Positions 9,346 to 40,591 of a stretch of 64,000 nt of DNA are shown piece by piece. The DNA lies in the NCBI RefSeq assembly GCF_003931915.1, contig NZ_RSAA01000017.1:1-64000 (forward strand), written 5' to 3'. Each line of letters starts with the position of its first letter. Within the stretch, counting starts at the first letter, position 1. The position numbers and the translations under genes were made by a program. Below the pieces are notes generated by a model that was given only the letters and a program-made list of their open reading frames with translations, was not told the origin of the DNA and ran no database searches. Source of the DNA: Saccharopolyspora rhizosphaerae (GTDB lineage: Bacteria > Actinomycetota > Actinomycetes > Mycobacteriales > Pseudonocardiaceae).

Positions 9346-10290
9346 TCACCCCGGTTCACCCGACCACCGCTGCGGCCACCACCGGCCGCGAGTTGAGATG
9401 GGGTAACCACTCTTCGGCGTTCCACGAGACCGCCAGTAGTGCACGATCACCGCCGACAACCAGGCAACACCGATCGCGGCTACCACGGCGAGCCAAACCC
9501 ACGTGATCGCGGTGAGGAGCCACACCTGCCCCGGTGTGGGGTCGCTGATCCACCCCGGGGCGGTCTCGGGACTCCACCCGTTCGGCGACGAGAGGACCAC
9601 CGTGATCAGAACTGCGACGCTGTGCGCAGAGTCCCACAGCGCGTGAAGCAGCGACACGCCGAGGTACGAAAGCACGAGCGGAACGGTCAGCAAGAAGCTC
9701 TCGCGGCCGCTTCGGGAGAACAGCACACCGCCGAGGATCGCCGTCCACAGACCGTGCCCGAAGGGTGCGACGAGGCCGCGCAGGAGCTCCGTGGCCACCA
9801 GGTCGACGAGGGAGAGGCCCTGTTCGGTCAGCGCGGCCATCATGGCGTAGCCCGCTGATTCGAAGGCGGAGAAACCGAAACCGACACAAGCGCCGAGGAG
9901 CATGCCGTCACGCGGAGCTTTGACCCGCAGTTCGCGGGTCAAAGCCGCCAGGGCGAGGAGTTTGACCGCTTCCTCGATGAGACCGACGCTCGCGAACAAC
10001 CCAACCGACGGACGCAGCAGGTAGCTCTCGAGCAGCGACGCTGCGAGCACCCCGAGTACCCCGCCCAGCACGAAGATCTTCAACAAGAGGGTCGCGGTGA
10101 TCTCCGCGGTGAGGCGGTGCTCGAAAGCCCAGGCGATGAAGGAAGCCGGAACCAGGAAGCTGCCGAGCAGCACCAAGGTGGGAACCAGGGTCGGGTTGGC
10201 GGTCAGGAAGGTCACGGCTACCGTGAGCAACCACAGCACCAACCCCGCTCCGAACATGCGCGCCCACGTGTAACGCCGGCCGGTGGTCAT
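9346..10290 (-). CDS. PrsW-family intramembrane metalloprotease
   Basis: A multi-pass membrane protein of 314 residues with the three PrsW signatures: an EExxK-type motif (LIEEAVKLL), a following FSAFES motif, and PFGHGLWTAILGG carrying the HxxxT element. In Bacillus, PrsW makes a site-1 cut in an anti-sigma factor; other members cut unknown membrane substrates. The C-terminal ~70 residues hold another membrane segment and a basic tail. The ATG at 10290 is preferred over a GTG at 10317 because GGGAGCC precedes it. No anti-sigma factor gene is adjacent, so the target is unknown. It ends in gene-free DNA and follows the MFS gene with a 23-base gap. Confidence 0.82.
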   Translation of the reverse strand: MTTGRRYTWARMFGAGLVLWLLTVAVTFLTANPTLVPTLVLLGSFLVPASFIAWAFEHRLTAEITATLLLKIFVLGGVLGVLAASLLESYLLRPSVGLFASVGLIEEAVKLLALAALTRELRVKAPRDGMLLGACVGFGFSAFESAGYAMMAALTEQGLSLVDLVATELLRGLVAPFGHGLWTAILGGVLFSRSGRESFLLTVPLVLSYLGVSLLHALWDSAHSVAVLITVVLSSPNGWSPETAPGWISDPTPGQVWLLTAITWVWLAVVAAIGVAWLSAVIVHYWRSRGTPKSGYPISTRGRWWPQRWSGEPG

Positions 10291-35189: not shown

Positions 35190-36692
35190 TCAGCTCGGGA
35201 AGGTGAAGCACACGAGGGACGAGCCCTCGTCGGCGGTGAGGGAGTAGTAGCGAGCGGTGTCGGACGAGCTCCTCGCGCACGGCGCGGTCGGGTCGGTCTT
35301 CACGCTGTCGACGACGAGGACCGTGTTGTAGTCGCTGGGAAGCTCGGTCTCGTCGCAGTCGACCGCGGTGCTGGTTCCGATGCGTACGCCGTCGTCCCCG
35401 GTGAGCTCGGCGAGCACGCAGTACCGCGGCACCCACACGCGGTCGAGGCACAGCGTCGTGGTGTCGCCGGAATCGCCCGTGTAGCTCCACGGCACGTGGT
35501 CCTCGGACTCGCTCCGGCAGTCCGTGCTGTCGAGCGTGGTGCTGATGACCAGGAAGACACCAGCCGTGTCGTGGTCGCACGGAACCGGATCCGGTGGGAC
35601 CGACGTGTTCCACTCACCGTCACCCGACTGGTAGATCGGGAGGCAGCTCCCCTCCTGCACGTCGTCGAAAGCTTCTTCCGTGGAGTCCGACGTGGTGGTC
35701 GTCGTCGTGCCGCTCTCGTCCCAGTAGTCAGACTCGTCGCTGTCCCAGTAGTACGACTCGTCACCATCCTCCGAGGACTCGTCGGAGGACGTGCTGTCCG
35801 ATGTGGACACGCCGTCCGAGTCGTACGACGACGTGCCCGAATCCTCCAGCTGGATGAGGCCAACGGTGACCAGGAGGAGGAGTCCGATCGCCACGACCAC
35901 CCCGACCACCGGGAACAACCGGTACGGCGCCTGGTCGGCGGGAACCTCGGACTCGGGCCGGGGTGCCACCACCCGGTCCGCGGGAGCCTCCACGAGCCCC
36001 CACGCTTCGTCCGCGCTGGGTCGCTGGGCGGGGTCCGCTGCGCGCATGCGCGCGATCAGCTGACCCAGTTCGCCGCCGTGCGCAGGCGTTCCGGAGTGCC
36101 CCGGTGACCGTCCCTCGAGCGCGTGGAGCAGCGTCGATCCCAGCGCGTGCACGTCACCGGCCGGGCTCGGGTCGCGGCCTTCGGGCGGGTGGTACGAGGA
36201 GTCGTCGACGGGCACGTCGAACCCGGTGAGCAGCGCTTCGCCGGTGCCCGTCAGCCGCACCGCCGCGGGCGAGAGGGAGCCGTGCGTGATGCCCTCGCTG
36301 TGCGCAGCCGACAACGCCCGGAGGAGGTCTCGCGCGATCGGCTCCACGGTCGTGGCCGCGGCAGGTCCGTAGGTCGCGATGTCCTCGGCGAGGGTGCGTC
36401 CTTCGACGAGCCTGCTCACCGACCAGACGACGTCCTCGTCGGCGAGCAGGTGGTCGGCGAAGACCAGGTTCGGAGCCTTCCGGAGCGCGACGGTCCGGTG
36501 CTGGGCGTGCTCGCCCCGGTCCTGCTCGAACCGCGCGACCCGATCACTCGCGTCCTGCGCTGAGCGCACGCGAACCCGTTCCAGGCTCACCTGCTCGCCG
36601 TTGATCTCGTCGCGGGCTCGCCACCGCTGCCCGGCACCCCGGAGGAGCCGGTACCGCCCGCCGACGAGCTCGCCTTCTTCCGCTCGTGCCAT
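35190..36692 (-). CDS. Transmembrane pseudokinase with Cys-rich exterior domain
   Basis: A 500-residue protein laid out like a Ser/Thr kinase receptor. Residues 1-240 have the kinase fold: LVGGRYRLLRGAGQ, an N-lobe strand VSLERV where the ATP-lysine is Glu38, HGSLSPAAV (137-145) in place of HRDLKPxNV, TGFDV (156-160) in place of DFG, and PAGDVHALGSTLLHALEG for helix F. The catalytic Asp, Asn and metal Asp are all gone, so it is a pseudokinase. A membrane helix spans about 259-281. A Ser/Asp/Thr/Tyr-rich stalk (about 284-345) leads to an exterior domain with eight Cys, enough for four disulfides. It is last in a minus-strand cluster, 21 bases after the small coiled-coil gene, and probably binds partners rather than phosphorylating them. 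Confidence 0.85.
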   Translation of the reverse strand: MARAEEGELVGGRYRLLRGAGQRWRARDEINGEQVSLERVRVRSAQDASDRVARFEQDRGEHAQHRTVALRKAPNLVFADHLLADEDVVWSVSRLVEGRTLAEDIATYGPAAATTVEPIARDLLRALSAAHSEGITHGSLSPAAVRLTGTGEALLTGFDVPVDDSSYHPPEGRDPSPAGDVHALGSTLLHALEGRSPGHSGTPAHGGELGQLIARMRAADPAQRPSADEAWGLVEAPADRVVAPRPESEVPADQAPYRLFPVVGVVVAIGLLLLVTVGLIQLEDSGTSSYDSDGVSTSDSTSSDESSEDGDESYYWDSDESDYWDESGTTTTTTSDSTEEAFDDVQEGSCLPIYQSGDGEWNTSVPPDPVPCDHDTAGVFLVISTTLDSTDCRSESEDHVPWSYTGDSGDTTTLCLDRVWVPRYCVLAELTGDDGVRIGTSTAVDCDETELPSDYNTVLVVDSVKTDPTAPCARSSSDTARYYSLTADEGSSLVCFTFPS

Positions 36693-36713
36693 GCCGATGC
36701 GCCCTCGTCCCGC

Positions 36714-37070
36714 TCAGCCGAACAAGGAGCTCACGGCTCCTTGCACGTTGGTCACCGCGGTGGCCAGCTCCCCCACCTGCCCCACCGACGACGAGATCCC
36801 GCTCAGCAGCCGGGAAATCCTGCCCTGGTCCGGGTTCTCGCCGTCCGCGGCGTCGGCGAGCGCTTCGGCGTCGCGCACCACCTCGTCGTCTTCGAGCCGC
36901 CCGTCGGCTCGGGCTGCCCGCAGTTCCCCCAGCAGCTGTTCGACCTGTCTCTGGAGCTCTCGCACTTGCTGCGCGTTCCCGTGGGAGACGGCTCGCGCTC
37001 CTGGGCCGACCGCCACGGCGTCGGCGTTGAACTGGCCCGATCCGCTGACGTTGATCCCGTAGTTGTTCAT
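36714..37070 (-). CDS. Small coiled-coil protein with N-terminal VSGxGxF/VAVG motif
   Basis: A 118-residue soluble protein. Residues 1-30 are INVSGSGQF then ADAVAVGPGARAVSH, a short beta-rich glycine motif. From about 33 to 65 there is a charged helical coiled coil (VRELQRQVEQLLGELRAARA). The C-terminal third is helical and amphipathic (LLSGISSSVGQVGELATAV). It resembles short actinobacterial proteins of the DUF5955 kind, without known role. The N-terminal motif recurs at the C-terminus of the protein encoded just upstream (ending 37074), which suggests that both join the same assembly. The start lies 3 bases after that gene's stop, with GGGGGAAG as ribosome site. Confidence 0.75.
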   Translation of the reverse strand: MNNYGINVSGSGQFNADAVAVGPGARAVSHGNAQQVRELQRQVEQLLGELRAARADGRLEDDEVVRDAEALADAADGENPDQGRISRLLSGISSSVGQVGELATAVTNVQGAVSSLFG

Positions 37071-37073
37071 GGG

Positions 37074-38654
37074 TCACTTCCCCCTGCTGTTCTGCACTGC
37101 CGCCCCGGCCCGGGCGAACGTGCTCCCTGCCCGGGCGAACGCGTGAGAGATCGGGTTCCTGCCGACGGCAACGCTGCCGGCCTTGAAGCTGCCCTGCCCG
37201 GACACGTAGATCCCGCTGTTCAGGATCGTCGTCTGGCGTTCCCGCAGATCGCTCGTGTCGATGTTGTGCGCCTCCAGGAACTCCTCGAGCGCGTCCACCA
37301 CGCGCCTTTCGGCGAGCTTGGAGTACATCTCCTTGTCCAAGCTCTGGAAGTACCGGTGGTACCGGAAGTCCGAGGCCCTCTCGCGCAGGTTGATGACGGC
37401 TCCGTAGTTGAAGCTGCGTTCGTGCGTGATCTCCCGCTTCTCGCGCCGGTGCGTGAACTCCGCCACGACGGGTGCGATCACGACTCCCCAGATGCGCTGG
37501 ACCGCGCCGAACGTGGTGGGGACGAACCTGGCCAGGCTCGACCCGGCCAACCTCACGAACTGGCGGGGTGTCGGGTTGCCCAACAGCCGGTCCACGTGCT
37601 GGTAGCGCTCCTGGAGCGGTCGCAGCAAGGAGTAGTTCGCCTCGACGTAGAGCTGGTCCTTGCGGGGCATCAGCGCGAAGCGGAGGAACATCGTGACCAC
37701 GAGTTCCCCGCTCCACCCGCCCACGCGGACGACCAGGTACGGACGTGCTCGGCTCTGGGGGTCCTCGCGCAACTGCGCGATCAGTGGTTCGTCGACGCGG
37801 GAGGCGGGGGCGGCCAGTTCGTCCGGCAGGATCGCCTGCTTCACGGGAGCTTCGAGGCCGTGCAACAGGTCCTGGCCGCTGACGAAGACCCGGTCCTCGA
37901 CCATGACGCCCGGCAGGCCGATGCCGCGCACCGCGTCCGCGACGAAGTCGCGCAGCTCGGCGGTGGTGAAGTCGATGGCCTCCTCGCCTTCGGCCGCCTT
38001 GGCCACGTTCAGGGTGAACGACCAGTTGCCGAACGGGGTGCCGTGCCCGGCGAAGGGACCGTAGTTGGCGAAGACCGTGACGTTCCCGCGGTCGTGGACC
38101 GAGACGGCCTCCAACCGCTTCCTGGTCGCTTCGCTGGTGGGTGCCGGGGCGTTCGCCGGGTTGAAACAGGAACGGCGGAAGTGCCTGGCGAGAACGCCGT
38201 AGTAGGTGGACAGGGTTTCTACGAACATGACCGCCCACCCGGCGAAGAGCGGGAGCAGCACCCACTCGGGTTCCGGACTGCTGAGCAGCCCGAGACCGAT
38301 CAGCAGCAGGACCACGAGCAGCACGTCCCGGGTCAACTGCCTGCTGCGTGCCGCCACGCCCCACTTGAGGACCGTGACGAGGTCGATGCCCGGCGAGGAG
38401 GTGATCGACCGGTACTCCTCCCGCAGGAGGTGCTTGTGCGCCAGCTCGTTGAGACCCGCGTTCATCTGGAGCGCGGCGCAGAGGTACCGGGTGGCGTCGC
38501 GGTTGAAGCCGGTGCCCGGCACGACACGTGCCGCAGGCTCGCCCAGGCGCGTCAAGCCTCCACCGGCGGCCCCTTCCGCAGCCCGTGGCCGTCCGCACTT
38601 CCAGCACAGGACGAAGTCGTCCTCGTTGGTGACGCCGCAGGAGTGGCACTTCAT
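37074..38654 (-). CDS. Zinc-ribbon membrane protein of the kinase cluster
   Basis: A 526-residue protein of unknown function. N-terminal zinc ribbon: C3-x2-C6 and C17-x2-C20 in KCHSCG and CWKCGRP. Two adjacent membrane helices follow at about 100-150 (LLVVLLLIGLGLL; VLLPLFAGWAVMFVETL). A large soluble part holds NVTVFANYGPFAGHGTPFGNW, which may sense or bind a ligand, and a helical segment RASDFRYHRYFQSLDKEMYSKLAERRVVD. The C-terminus reads GIYVSGQGSFKAGSVAVG, almost the same as the N-terminus of the next protein. ATG 38654 starts at the ribbon; GTG 38663 is an alternative with GGGGGAAG nearby. It lies 19 bases after the kinase-like gene's stop, so the cluster is one operon. Confidence 0.8.
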   Translation of the reverse strand: MKCHSCGVTNEDDFVLCWKCGRPRAAEGAAGGGLTRLGEPAARVVPGTGFNRDATRYLCAALQMNAGLNELAHKHLLREEYRSITSSPGIDLVTVLKWGVAARSRQLTRDVLLVVLLLIGLGLLSSPEPEWVLLPLFAGWAVMFVETLSTYYGVLARHFRRSCFNPANAPAPTSEATRKRLEAVSVHDRGNVTVFANYGPFAGHGTPFGNWSFTLNVAKAAEGEEAIDFTTAELRDFVADAVRGIGLPGVMVEDRVFVSGQDLLHGLEAPVKQAILPDELAAPASRVDEPLIAQLREDPQSRARPYLVVRVGGWSGELVVTMFLRFALMPRKDQLYVEANYSLLRPLQERYQHVDRLLGNPTPRQFVRLAGSSLARFVPTTFGAVQRIWGVVIAPVVAEFTHRREKREITHERSFNYGAVINLRERASDFRYHRYFQSLDKEMYSKLAERRVVDALEEFLEAHNIDTSDLRERQTTILNSGIYVSGQGSFKAGSVAVGRNPISHAFARAGSTFARAGAAVQNSRGK

Positions 38655-38673
38655 CTGATCCACCGCTTCCCCC

Positions 38674-39720
38674 TCAGTCCAGGTATTCGACGGAGGCCGA
38701 CGGCTCGCGAACCGGCCTGGCCGGAAGGGGCAGGCGCCCGGGGAACGCGCCGTCACGCACGTAGAGCTCACCAGCCAGCACCGCTTCGAGCTCGGCCGTC
38801 GAAGGCCGCTGTTCGCGCCGCGTGCTGAGCAGGACGTCGAGCAGGACCTCCCGCAGGCCGCGGTTGCCGAGACCGTCGGAGTCGGCCAGTGCGCCAACCG
38901 CAGCAGCCCCTTCGCTCTGCCCGGTCAGCCAGCGCGTGACGAGCAAGGCGACGCGGAACCGGGCGGTGCAGGCGTCGGCCTCCTGAGCAGGTGGGGTGAG
39001 CGGGTCGTCCCAGTCCGGGAAGGGGGTGTTCGGGACCGCTCCCCGGCCGCACCGGTCGACGTCGGTGACGAAGACGGAGACGTCCGGGCGCCACAGCACG
39101 GTGTTCCAGGACCAGTCCGGGTGGACCAGGTCGTGGCGCTCCAGCACGTCCGCCACCGCCACCAGGTTCCGGCACGCACGCAGCCGGTCCGACCTGCTCT
39201 GCCGGTCGACGTGCTGCTCACCGATCTGGCGGGAACCCTCGGGAACTGCTGGGATCACGCACCCGTGCGCACTGCCGTCAGACGTCGTGATGCGAGCAGC
39301 AGGCCACGCCGTGCAGGTCCGCAGCACCGTCGCATCGTCCTCGGCGAGAGCGGTGGGCAGCGCCACGAGCTCGTCCACGCGGACGGCTTCGTCCTGCCCC
39401 GCGGGCTGCTCGTCCAGCTTCGCCAGCCACCCGGGATGGTGCAGGATGCGGTGAACACCCGCTCTCTGCTCGGCGACGGTTCCCGACAACGGCCCCAGGT
39501 CACCCAGCTCCACCACGGCGGGCATGGGCCAGCGACCTGCTGACATGCCGACCACCTCCCCCACCCCGGACGGCAGCCGCAGCGCGGGCACCGGACGTGC
39601 CTGGACCGACGGGCTCGAGGCAACCGGCACCGCGTCCAGCACTGGGCGTTCGCGCGGCGGAACCGCGAAACAGCAGTGACCGTAGCGGAGACCGACGACC
39701 ACCAGGACGGGTTCGATCAT
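38674..39720 (-). CDS. Kinase-like protein retaining catalytic residues
   Basis: A 348-residue soluble protein. The N-terminal ~60 residues resemble no family. A kinase-like region follows: VHRILHHPGWLAKLDE (candidate ATP-lysine K101), TAWPAARITTSDGSAHGCVIPAVPEG (hinge region as in bacterial kinases with a WP...G(F/C)xxP pattern), HDLVHPDWSWNTVLW (200-210: catalytic D202 and N206 of an HxDxxxxN loop) and VFVTDVDRCG (D220/D222 as metal aspartates). Unlike the pseudokinase downstream, the catalytic set looks intact. The ATG at 39720 is preceded directly by GGGGGAAA; the longer open frame upstream is discounted. A role as the signalling enzyme of the cluster is inferred; the substrate is unknown. 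Confidence 0.78.
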   Translation of the reverse strand: MIEPVLVVVGLRYGHCCFAVPPRERPVLDAVPVASSPSVQARPVPALRLPSGVGEVVGMSAGRWPMPAVVELGDLGPLSGTVAEQRAGVHRILHHPGWLAKLDEQPAGQDEAVRVDELVALPTALAEDDATVLRTCTAWPAARITTSDGSAHGCVIPAVPEGSRQIGEQHVDRQSRSDRLRACRNLVAVADVLERHDLVHPDWSWNTVLWRPDVSVFVTDVDRCGRGAVPNTPFPDWDDPLTPPAQEADACTARFRVALLVTRWLTGQSEGAAAVGALADSDGLGNRGLREVLLDVLLSTRREQRPSTAELEAVLAGELYVRDGAFPGRLPLPARPVREPSASVEYLD

Positions 39721-39829
39721 TTTCCCCCGGTTGGAGCACTCGGACACCGAACCCCCTGCGGCGCAGGCGTTGCGCGAGCGCGAGGTGTTGTCCCGCGTTA
39801 CCAGCTCCTGAGAGATGACCTGAACGACC

Positions 39830-40489
39830 TCATGGCGGTGGGAGTTCCACGACGACCGAGGCCACCGAGTCGAGGAACGCGTTCGACGGGTTACCGCGTA
39901 CCGGTTCCGCCTCGGCGATCGTGAGCATGGCACCCCGTTGCTGGGAGTCGTAGTGCTTCGCGGTGAACCGGACACCGCCGAAGCCCAACAGCTGCGTACC
40001 AAAGGGGATCACGTCGCCGGTCCCGTACTCGTCCTCCACCTTCTTCAACCCCGACGCGCTGGACCACGACGGCATGCGCACCCACATCAGTGAAACAGCG
40101 ATGACGTTGCCCTCGGCGTCAGCGACGGGGAAGAGCCGCTGCTGCAGCCTCTTGCACGGATGGCGCAGGAAGTACTGCTGCACCTCGCCGTAGGACTGCG
40201 CGACGCACGGGAGGTCGCGACTCACCTCGTGGCGAAGCTTTCGGAGTCCCATCCGGTTCAGCGCTCCGCGCACATCTCCCTTCCGCGCGGTGTTCTTGCT
40301 GGTCTTCGTCGTCTTGGCTTGGGTTGCGCGCTGGGCGACGGAGGTCTCCAATGAGGTGCCCACGGAGGCGGTGGTGGCACCACCACTCGACGCCACCACC
40401 AGCCCGGCGATGATCGCGCCGACTGTCCCGCCCGCCTTCTTCGTCCAACGACCCTTGCTGTCTCGCGGTTGATCGGGATTTCCCGGCAC
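39830..40489 (-). CDS. Unknown membrane-anchored protein heading the kinase cluster
   Basis: About 219 residues. A basic N-terminus (DSKGRWTKKAGG) leads into one hydrophobic helix (TVGAIIAGLVVASSGGA), then a Lys/Thr-rich linker. A conserved-looking globular part follows: LRKLRHEVSRDLPCVAQSYGEVQQYFLRHPCKRLQQRLFPV, VSLMWVRMP, VEDEYGTGDVIPFG, VRFTAKHYDSQQRGAMLTIAEAEP and FLDSVASVVVELP. It resembles unassigned actinobacterial proteins. GTG 40489 is preferred over the GTG at 40504 because GGAGG then lies 7 bases before it. It is followed by a 109-base gap and the kinase-like gene, in the same direction. The function is unknown. Confidence 0.72.
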   Translation of the reverse strand: MPGNPDQPRDSKGRWTKKAGGTVGAIIAGLVVASSGGATTASVGTSLETSVAQRATQAKTTKTSKNTARKGDVRGALNRMGLRKLRHEVSRDLPCVAQSYGEVQQYFLRHPCKRLQQRLFPVADAEGNVIAVSLMWVRMPSWSSASGLKKVEDEYGTGDVIPFGTQLLGFGGVRFTAKHYDSQQRGAMLTIAEAEPVRGNPSNAFLDSVASVVVELPPP

Positions 40490-40591
40490 GAAGCTCCCTC
40501 CCACAGGTCCGGTGGCGTTCCGATCGTTCTCAAGAGGAAGCCACGACGTCCCGTTGATGCAGGAGAACCACCCGAAGGTCCCACCCTCAAC

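Follow-up and report, generated by a model that had tools for sequence, protein, structure and literature searches.

In known systems close to the one reported here, two neighbouring genes are coupled by a short matched motif. As presented in the accessible parts of PMC8086366 and PMC7889193, BASS pairs join Bell proteins, and also CHAT and TIR proteins, to NLRs, and PMC7889193, in the same parts, asks whether NLR-independent signalling amyloids exist and names the bias of looking beside NLRs. In fungi, a PNP_UDP-associated amyloid signalling motif (PUASM) lies at the C-terminus of an effector and on an NLR, according to the portion of PMC9815663 at hand. Here we analyse a minus-strand run of five open reading frames at positions 40504-35190 of a 64 kb stretch of Saccharopolyspora rhizosphaerae DNA (contig NZ_RSAA01000017.1, positions 1 to 64,000), which we call the window. 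It belongs to a 5.8 Mb genome labelled G000, and tallies over searched genomes below count this genome in. The genes are designated A-B-C-D-E in transcription order. The C-terminal tail of the membrane protein C resembles the head of its neighbour D, and comparison across many operons makes it very probable that C tail and partner head pair through this motif. Like BASS, the C-D pair shares one short motif, C-terminal in the first protein and N-terminal in that encoded next to it, occurs in filamentous actinobacteria and comes in many motif types; unlike the BASS proteins in those excerpts, C is mostly ~520-590 aa and membrane-bound, and its partner is DUF5955-like or PNP_UDP, with no NLR seen. 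The likeness to PUASM, on the excerpt cited, is a motif pair serving a PNP_UDP effector, whereas here no NLR was seen and the strict core is absent. Coupling by EADs, as far as covered in the available part of PMC7159879, likewise relies on a module present in each of two neighbouring genes, but EADs are folded domains and the motif here is short and low in predicted order. In the literature we searched, largely without subscription papers, none of the papers listed, judged by title, opening of the abstract and selected excerpts, describes NLR-free amyloid-type pairs like C-D.

The C tail, GIYVSGQGSFKAGSVAVG, resembles the D head, GINVSGSGQFNADAVAVG; both are Gly/Asn-rich, charge-poor and about 28 residues long. 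This match was absent from an earlier annotation made from the letters of the window alone (the sequence-only reading) and emerged in follow-up. Within the window the C-D pair scores 63, while the other 15 of the 16 adjacent same-strand pairs score 18-32. Searched against its whole own genome, the D head matched, after itself, the C tail (E 0.047, not significant alone), and the next match followed at E 1.1. The motif differs from operon to operon, with tail and head agreeing inside each. In a discovery set of 39 C matches, 28 had a small same-strand neighbour; removal of four same-genome duplicates left 24 pairs, from which 16 representatives were taken. Own pairs scored 65.9 against 28.3 for other pairs, the own head ranked first for 13 of the 16 tails and second for the remaining three, and none of 100,000 permutations reached the observed value. 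When the C tail was instead compared with the remainder of D, own and other pairs scored alike (19.8 and 20.9).

The same comparison was made on a hold-out set of 60 loci, picked by score among the stronger matches. C was called in 57 of them, and a partner was defined as a same-strand gene within 200 bp, of any length; eight C genes had none, leaving 49 pairs and 36 representatives. The hold-out and discovery sets have no locus in common, but the C profile used for the hold-out (A5) includes the discovery C proteins with their tails. Genes were called by a codon-usage script, and some starts are wrong. Own pairs scored 75.1 against 33.2 for others, with the own head at rank 1 in 23/36, at rank 3 or better in 32/36 and at a score of at least 50 in 32/36 (0/100,000 permutations), and the partner's last 60 residues gave 23.7 for own and 22.6 for other pairs. 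The four pairs below 50 (L136, L138, L141 and L160) have related segments visible by eye. Among other adjacent gene pairs in the hold-out loci, one of 208 scored at least 50; this exception consists of two like proteins, presumably SMR transporter paralogues. Nine genomes, eight from the hold-out and one from the discovery set (G028), have at least two usable operons (three more had a single one), and in these all 19 tails fit their own partner best, at 72.1 against 26.5, with a highest cross score of 44.

In normalised scores over the motif alone, own tail-head pairs reach 0.49, foreign tail-head pairs 0.18, tail-tail pairs 0.19 and head-head pairs 0.20. On average, tails appear to have drifted equally far from one another and from foreign heads, each staying near its own head. 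That own scores exceed foreign ones argues against plain divergence after an old duplication, which predicts equal scores. Identical motif residues use the same codon in 448 of 711 cases (0.63 against 0.58 expected), a small excess; because codon identity lies just slightly above expectation, the likeness seems to be maintained at the protein level rather than through recent DNA copying. Recent duplication or gene conversion of the motif was considered and thought unlikely on the same figures.

Of 150 genomes searched, 27 have C, among them six of the 22 genomes of the genus, the window's included. A 17-row profile of C, run across the class, matched 66/394 genomes and 19/138 genera, and a sample of the phylum gave 12/296 genomes, two of them outside the class. 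In all six C-bearing genus genomes, C, D and E are adjacent. D of the window is a DUF5955 protein (34.0 bits against a gathering cut-off of 27.1), a threshold that two other D proteins do not reach (16.9 bits for D of L036; no match for D of L147). We found no mention of DUF5955 in the literature searched, which lay mostly outside subscription journals. As called, 42 of the 49 hold-out partners are 99-193 aa long, and in seven loci (L168, L174, L175, L177, L182, L185 and L186) the partner has 296-315 aa. All five of these seven that were scanned carry PNP_UDP_1, and the two run through PADLOC both match its model for PN-superfamily effectors. Some relatives have thus, by domain assignment, swapped D for the motif plus a nucleosidase (PNP_UDP) domain, a known type of immune effector. 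In four of the PNP_UDP loci (L168, L174, L182 and L186), a divergent gene is also present whose product, judged by eye alone, resembles Nudix proteins. On a short Thermomonosporaceae contig, a PNP_UDP_1 gene stands upstream of C (L069:2036-2569), with no downstream partner called.

Protein C has an N-terminal CxxC...CxxC zinc ribbon, for which the best Pfam model gives 27.9 bits against a cut-off of 28, and a hydrophobic segment at 106-130, in keeping with the zinc-ribbon membrane protein that had been read from the sequence. C of S. endophytica also has the zinc ribbon, in frame upstream of the called start. The structure model has a mean confidence (pLDDT) of 74.1, and residues 481-526 fall below 50; values below 50 often mark disorder. 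Foldseek gave no match to C at 0.001 (best E 0.027), with many low-probability matches of START/Bet v 1 type, and the C profile found just weak zinc-ribbon and other matches in the PDB. C has no Bell-type Pfam match among the models scanned, a set that did not hold the Bell profiles themselves. No NLR was found among the proteins of the window operon by Pfam and NCBIfam scans. Across 92 C runs, just four contain another gene of at least 600 aa (L048, L135, L138 and L141). In L048 it is a Sll1717-family P-loop ATPase after D (L048:5433-7352) with a Gly/Asn-rich C-terminus, which does not match its own C tail or D head (scores of 20 and 22). In the other three, C is preceded by a gene for a protein of ~1000 aa; that of L138 is HerA/CedD-like, and those of L135 and L141 were assigned by likeness to it, a second gene of at least 600 aa in L135 being outside the family scan.

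E has a single transmembrane (TM)-like segment (255-285), and the only Cys residues of the protein, exactly eight, lie past this segment. Its linker of 64 residues holds 22 Asp/Glu and 27 Ser/Thr with no Lys/Arg. The cytosolic half scores 20.6 bits against Pfam Pkinase in the window protein (cut-off 31.7) and 42.7 bits in the L036 orthologue, and matches PknA at 1.6e-7. By alignment, all six orthologues have the VAIK Lys changed to E or S, HRD changed to HG(S/A/G) and DFG changed to GF(D/G). The exterior half is weakly LppU/SCO3897-like: the window protein, at 21.2 bits, stays under the NCBIfam cut-off of 25, and 6/6 orthologues match at E<=0.01. Among 150 genomes this domain is confined to the six C-bearing genus genomes plus one weak match. 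The description of a receptor-shaped pseudokinase with replaced catalytic residues and an eight-Cys exterior was borne out in E and in the key motifs of all six orthologues, and E is a true pseudokinase with the layout of a one-pass receptor. Outside this group of genomes the part may be played by other proteins. A third same-strand gene stands near C in 46 of 92 loci, and in 27 of these 46 (21 of 40 outside the genus) it encodes a one-pass protein whose part past the TM segment spans 70 residues or more. Across loci, then, a hub and its matched partner are often joined by a one-pass protein, and the pseudokinase is the form that this third part takes in the genus. In two loci (L070:11983-12717 and L131:4788-5531) the third gene seems to bear an N-terminal zinc ribbon before its single TM segment, seen by eye in L070 and at 17.1 bits against a Pfam cut-off of 25 in L131.

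B had been read as a kinase-like protein keeping D202, N206 and D220. Its kinase homology and the two Asp residues stood up, and K101 is retained too, but in alignment with relatives N206 falls at D+4. The place of the catalytic Asn is D+5, where B and its S. ipomoeae orthologue have Thr; the other nine of the 11 aligned relatives have Asn there. The Gly-rich loop is unrecognisable in B and likewise in a triad-bearing orthologue. A B-family profile (A8) matched 573 PDB sequences at E<=1, the best at 9.4e-6, and 59 of the 60 best of these are named kinase, receptor kinase or titin, the last of which contains a kinase domain; one has no molecule name. Aligned with hhalign, the B and E families match at 94.6%. 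Neither the single B sequence nor a five-row B profile had a PDB match, the structure model of B (pLDDT 47.8) is too poor for a fold assignment, and the NCBIfam model for the MADS protein kinase MAD6 scores 58.1 bits, below its curated cut-off of 460. By profile, then, kinase homology of B is firm. B as an intact kinase was rejected on the loss of the catalytic Asn. Between the window and S. ipomoeae, dN/dS is 0.41 for B, 0.35 for C, 0.39 for D and 0.33 for E, and B is under constraint but probably non-catalytic.

The relatives of B suggest where it came from. B is present in five of the six C-bearing genus genomes. In S. indica, S. kobensis and genome G013, the operon runs PP2C, B with a TM tail, vWA, C, D and E; in Streptomyces sclerotialus it runs PP2C, B, vWA, C and D, with no E; and six of six distant B loci have vWA and PP2C, with C in none. 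Because of these sister-species triads and the distant B loci that have vWA and PP2C but no C, B appears to be the kinase of a TerY-P-like triad which joined C-D-E. The adjoining vWA, PP2C and kinase genes of the three sister species, Streptomyces sclerotialus and the distant loci are what TerY-P systems share with this family in the parts of PMC11090510 and PMC4978471 accessible to us; the window differs in having a degenerate kinase alone, tied to C-D-E, and a zinc ribbon in C, not in the kinase. GAP1-N2-linked actinobacterial genes for PP2C, TM-kinase and vWA, in the available part of PMC7159879, offer a further likeness, a TM-fused kinase beside PP2C and a standalone vWA. In S. indica and S. 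kobensis (the loci L065 and L066, ~9826-10000), the space between vWA and C is taken up by a small reading frame that encodes a TM-like segment and overlaps the stop of vWA.

In the window, the rest of the triad is gone. With the vWA of L036 as query, tblastn found nothing in the 64 kb window (E<=0.1) or in the S. ipomoeae and S. endophytica stretches, and, at E<=0.001, had no match anywhere in the genome of the window; the PP2C of L036 likewise found nothing in the window or in those two stretches. Both queries matched L065 and L066. B ends VEYLD in the window and in S. ipomoeae, and the last 24 nt of the window gene agree with the end of the vWA gene at 19/24 positions in S. kobensis and 18/24 in both S. 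indica and Streptomyces sclerotialus; the S. ipomoeae end agrees with that of the S. kobensis vWA at 20/24. The end of B in S. kobensis agrees with the same 24 nt at 9/24. The simplest reading is that one deletion took B's TM tail and nearly all of the vWA gene, so that B would now end in the last codons of vWA. S. endophytica has no B and retains C-D-E. In Kutzneria sp. 744, an 83-aa gene just upstream of C (L067:9745-9996) resembles the membrane N-terminus of PP2C, with a score of 144 against 40 for shuffles (standard deviation 7) and a blastp value of 3.5e-10, its five best matches among 1297 called proteins being the PP2C copies of this cluster. At default statistics, tblastn with the L036 PP2C overlooked this gene at E<=0.1. 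By its likeness, the Kutzneria gene is a triad leftover.

The coordinates of the locus are collected below. Five minus-strand genes had been placed here from the sequence, and our calls agree with them; the gaps of about 19, 3 and 21 bases reported for the last four genes were measured again at the same values (B-C 19 bp, C-D 3 bp, D-E 21 bp), and the shared GGGGGAA was found before B, C and D. The B-C gap shrinks to 10 bp under an alternative C start, GTG at 38663. A lies 109 bp from B. Homologues of A occur in 100 of the 150 genomes, its closest foreign match (70%) is on another contig than the C cluster of the same genome, and A was rejected as a member of the unit on these grounds. A has no Pfam match, and weaker matches to its family cover chiefly the C-terminal half, about 93-224. 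Of the proposed five-gene unit, then, B to E are conserved together elsewhere and A stands outside.

Features of the locus, all within the 64 kb window
Feature	Position	Strand	Description
A	39830..40504	-	separate widespread family, outside the unit
B	38674..39720	-	348 aa; degenerate homologue of TerY-P-type protein kinases; K101, D202 and D220 retained; Thr at the catalytic Asn position, 207; no TM tail
B end, 24 nt	38674..38697	-	resembles the end of a vWA gene; probable deletion scar
C	37074..38654	-	zinc ribbon, two long helices (92-158, structure model) taken as membrane part, mixed alpha/beta body, low-confidence C-terminal tail
C-tail motif	37131..37220	-	C residues 479-508
D	36714..37070	-	head motif and DUF5955 domain, 118 aa
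D-head motif	36969..37064	-	D residues 3-34
E	35190..36692	-	one-pass receptor: cytosolic pseudokinase ~7-240, TM 255-285, linker, 8-Cys exterior domain

The character of the motif bears on how C and D might assemble. A composition survey compared 59 of 65 pairs with 1103 control proteins. The motif has a median of 28 residues, no Cys and little Pro; relative to control termini it is poor in charge (0.08-0.10 against 0.22-0.23), about five-fold enriched in Asn (0.08-0.10 against 0.02) and rich in Gly (0.20 against 0.09). A relaxed PUASM core occurs in 5/65 D heads, all in the genus of the window, compared with 0/980 control N-termini and 2/980 control C-termini. By analogy with the described signalling motifs, we regard amyloid-type assembly through the motif as an evenly balanced possibility.

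Several observations weigh against the amyloid reading or against the wider signalling model built on it. Hydrophobicity is lower in the motif (0.22) than in control termini (0.28-0.30), the strict fungal PUASM core pattern is found in 0/65 pairs, and the tail-head match may reflect docking through a beta element instead of an amyloid. Two definitions of the partner head were applied to the hold-out set, and the observed value was unreached by permutation under either, but with longest-ORF (open reading frame) starts the signal is weaker (own 63.6 against 30.4, rank 1-3 in 26/36, 0/20,000 permutations). The permutation null ignores relatedness, which leaves the same-genome test unaffected. Own tail-head similarity exceeds the best foreign tail-tail similarity in 10/16 cases for the motif only and in 4/16 for longer segments, and related operons do, by these comparisons, keep similar tails. 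For 13 pairs at the malate dehydrogenase locus discussed below, identity is 0.52 for own tail and head, 0.36 for foreign tail and head, 0.39 for tail and tail and 0.52 for the C body. D evolves fastest (dN/dS 0.39-0.99), and relaxed constraint on it is possible. An E-like third gene is lacking in 19/46 loci, and PADLOC matched none of the 10 genes flanking the window operon.

Could the tail-head likeness be shared low-complexity Gly/Asn composition alone? The composition is biased, but own pairs exceed equally biased foreign pairs by about four standard deviations, cross pairs within a genome stay at or below 44, and shuffled own pairs have a mean of 23.5 (standard deviation 4.9, maximum 52 among 3200), leaving this explanation extremely improbable. 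A stronger competitor takes tail and head for a plain docking device, such as a beta-strand tag or beta-solenoid cap, within a stable C-D housekeeping complex of the envelope whose interface co-evolves, with no polymerisation switch and no conflict role. Genomic context speaks for it. In 14 of the 57 hold-out loci (L140, L143-L147, L152-L156, L158, L161 and L162), the stretch with C also contains a gene that we take, from the start of its protein, to encode malate dehydrogenase, and this gene directly adjoins C in eight; this is a fixed, stable core position with a changing motif whose turnover is modest. Around the window operon, nine of the 10 flanking genes have Pfam names that are metabolic, transport or regulatory, and with the window C as query we found 0/50,697 phage and 2/72,556 plasmid records. 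Yet the tail is Asn/Gly-rich, poor in charge and proline and of very low model confidence, the motif turns over extensively between distant operons while matching is kept within them, and D is swapped for PNP_UDP effectors. Weighing these, we find simple docking unlikely. A fixed locus with motif turnover is compatible with allorecognition or long-standing immunity and also with a plain co-evolving interface.

The sequence-only reading had instead proposed a kinase/pseudokinase module, with E as the sensor of the exterior and B as an active kinase that delivers the output. B and E are indeed both kinase homologues, sharing an operon in five genus genomes, and the dN/dS of B indicates constraint. 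B is, however, without its catalytic Asn, PP2C and vWA are gone, and C-D-E persists in S. endophytica without B, so we consider this model very unlikely; an output through the soluble kinase is not supported, since one species does without B and the copies of the window and S. ipomoeae are degenerate. The broader suggestion of a membrane signalling or conflict module fares better in part. PNP_UDP partners in relatives make a conflict role plausible, and by that analogy we rate it only a little short of an even prospect; the flanking genes form no defence island here.

We think it reasonably probable that C-D-E is a membrane signalling unit with operon-specific homotypic motif pairing, in which E gates and B is left over. 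In this model, C would be the constant, membrane-anchored hub, its C-terminal tail motif pairing homotypically with the head of the neighbouring protein. The partner, D (DUF5955) here but in some relatives a nucleosidase of the PNP_UDP type, would be the output. The motif would act as an operon-specific code through which the cognate partner alone is recruited, probably by amyloid-type templating into a cross-beta form. We speculate that E, or a similar one-pass protein elsewhere, senses the exterior and gates assembly through its pseudokinase half, and that assembly either makes C perturb the membrane or activates the partner. B would be the remnant of a TerY-P-like switch of kinase, phosphatase and vWA that sister species retain.

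More tentatively, and with rather less confidence than an even call, we hypothesize that filamentous actinobacteria have widespread NLR-free amyloid signalosomes, made of the membrane hub C and a swappable output (DUF5955 or PNP_UDP), whose prion-like motif is rewritten in concert in each operon. If this is true, several signalosomes could run in one cell without cross-talk, and they would answer the question raised in the accessible part of PMC7889193. The C-D family supplies dozens of candidate pairs, with the second operon of the same genome as a built-in negative control, and specificity, seeding and outcome are thus directly testable in it. It would also provide a first functional handle on DUF5955, and the window itself appears to capture how a conserved receptor unit loses its kinase switch.

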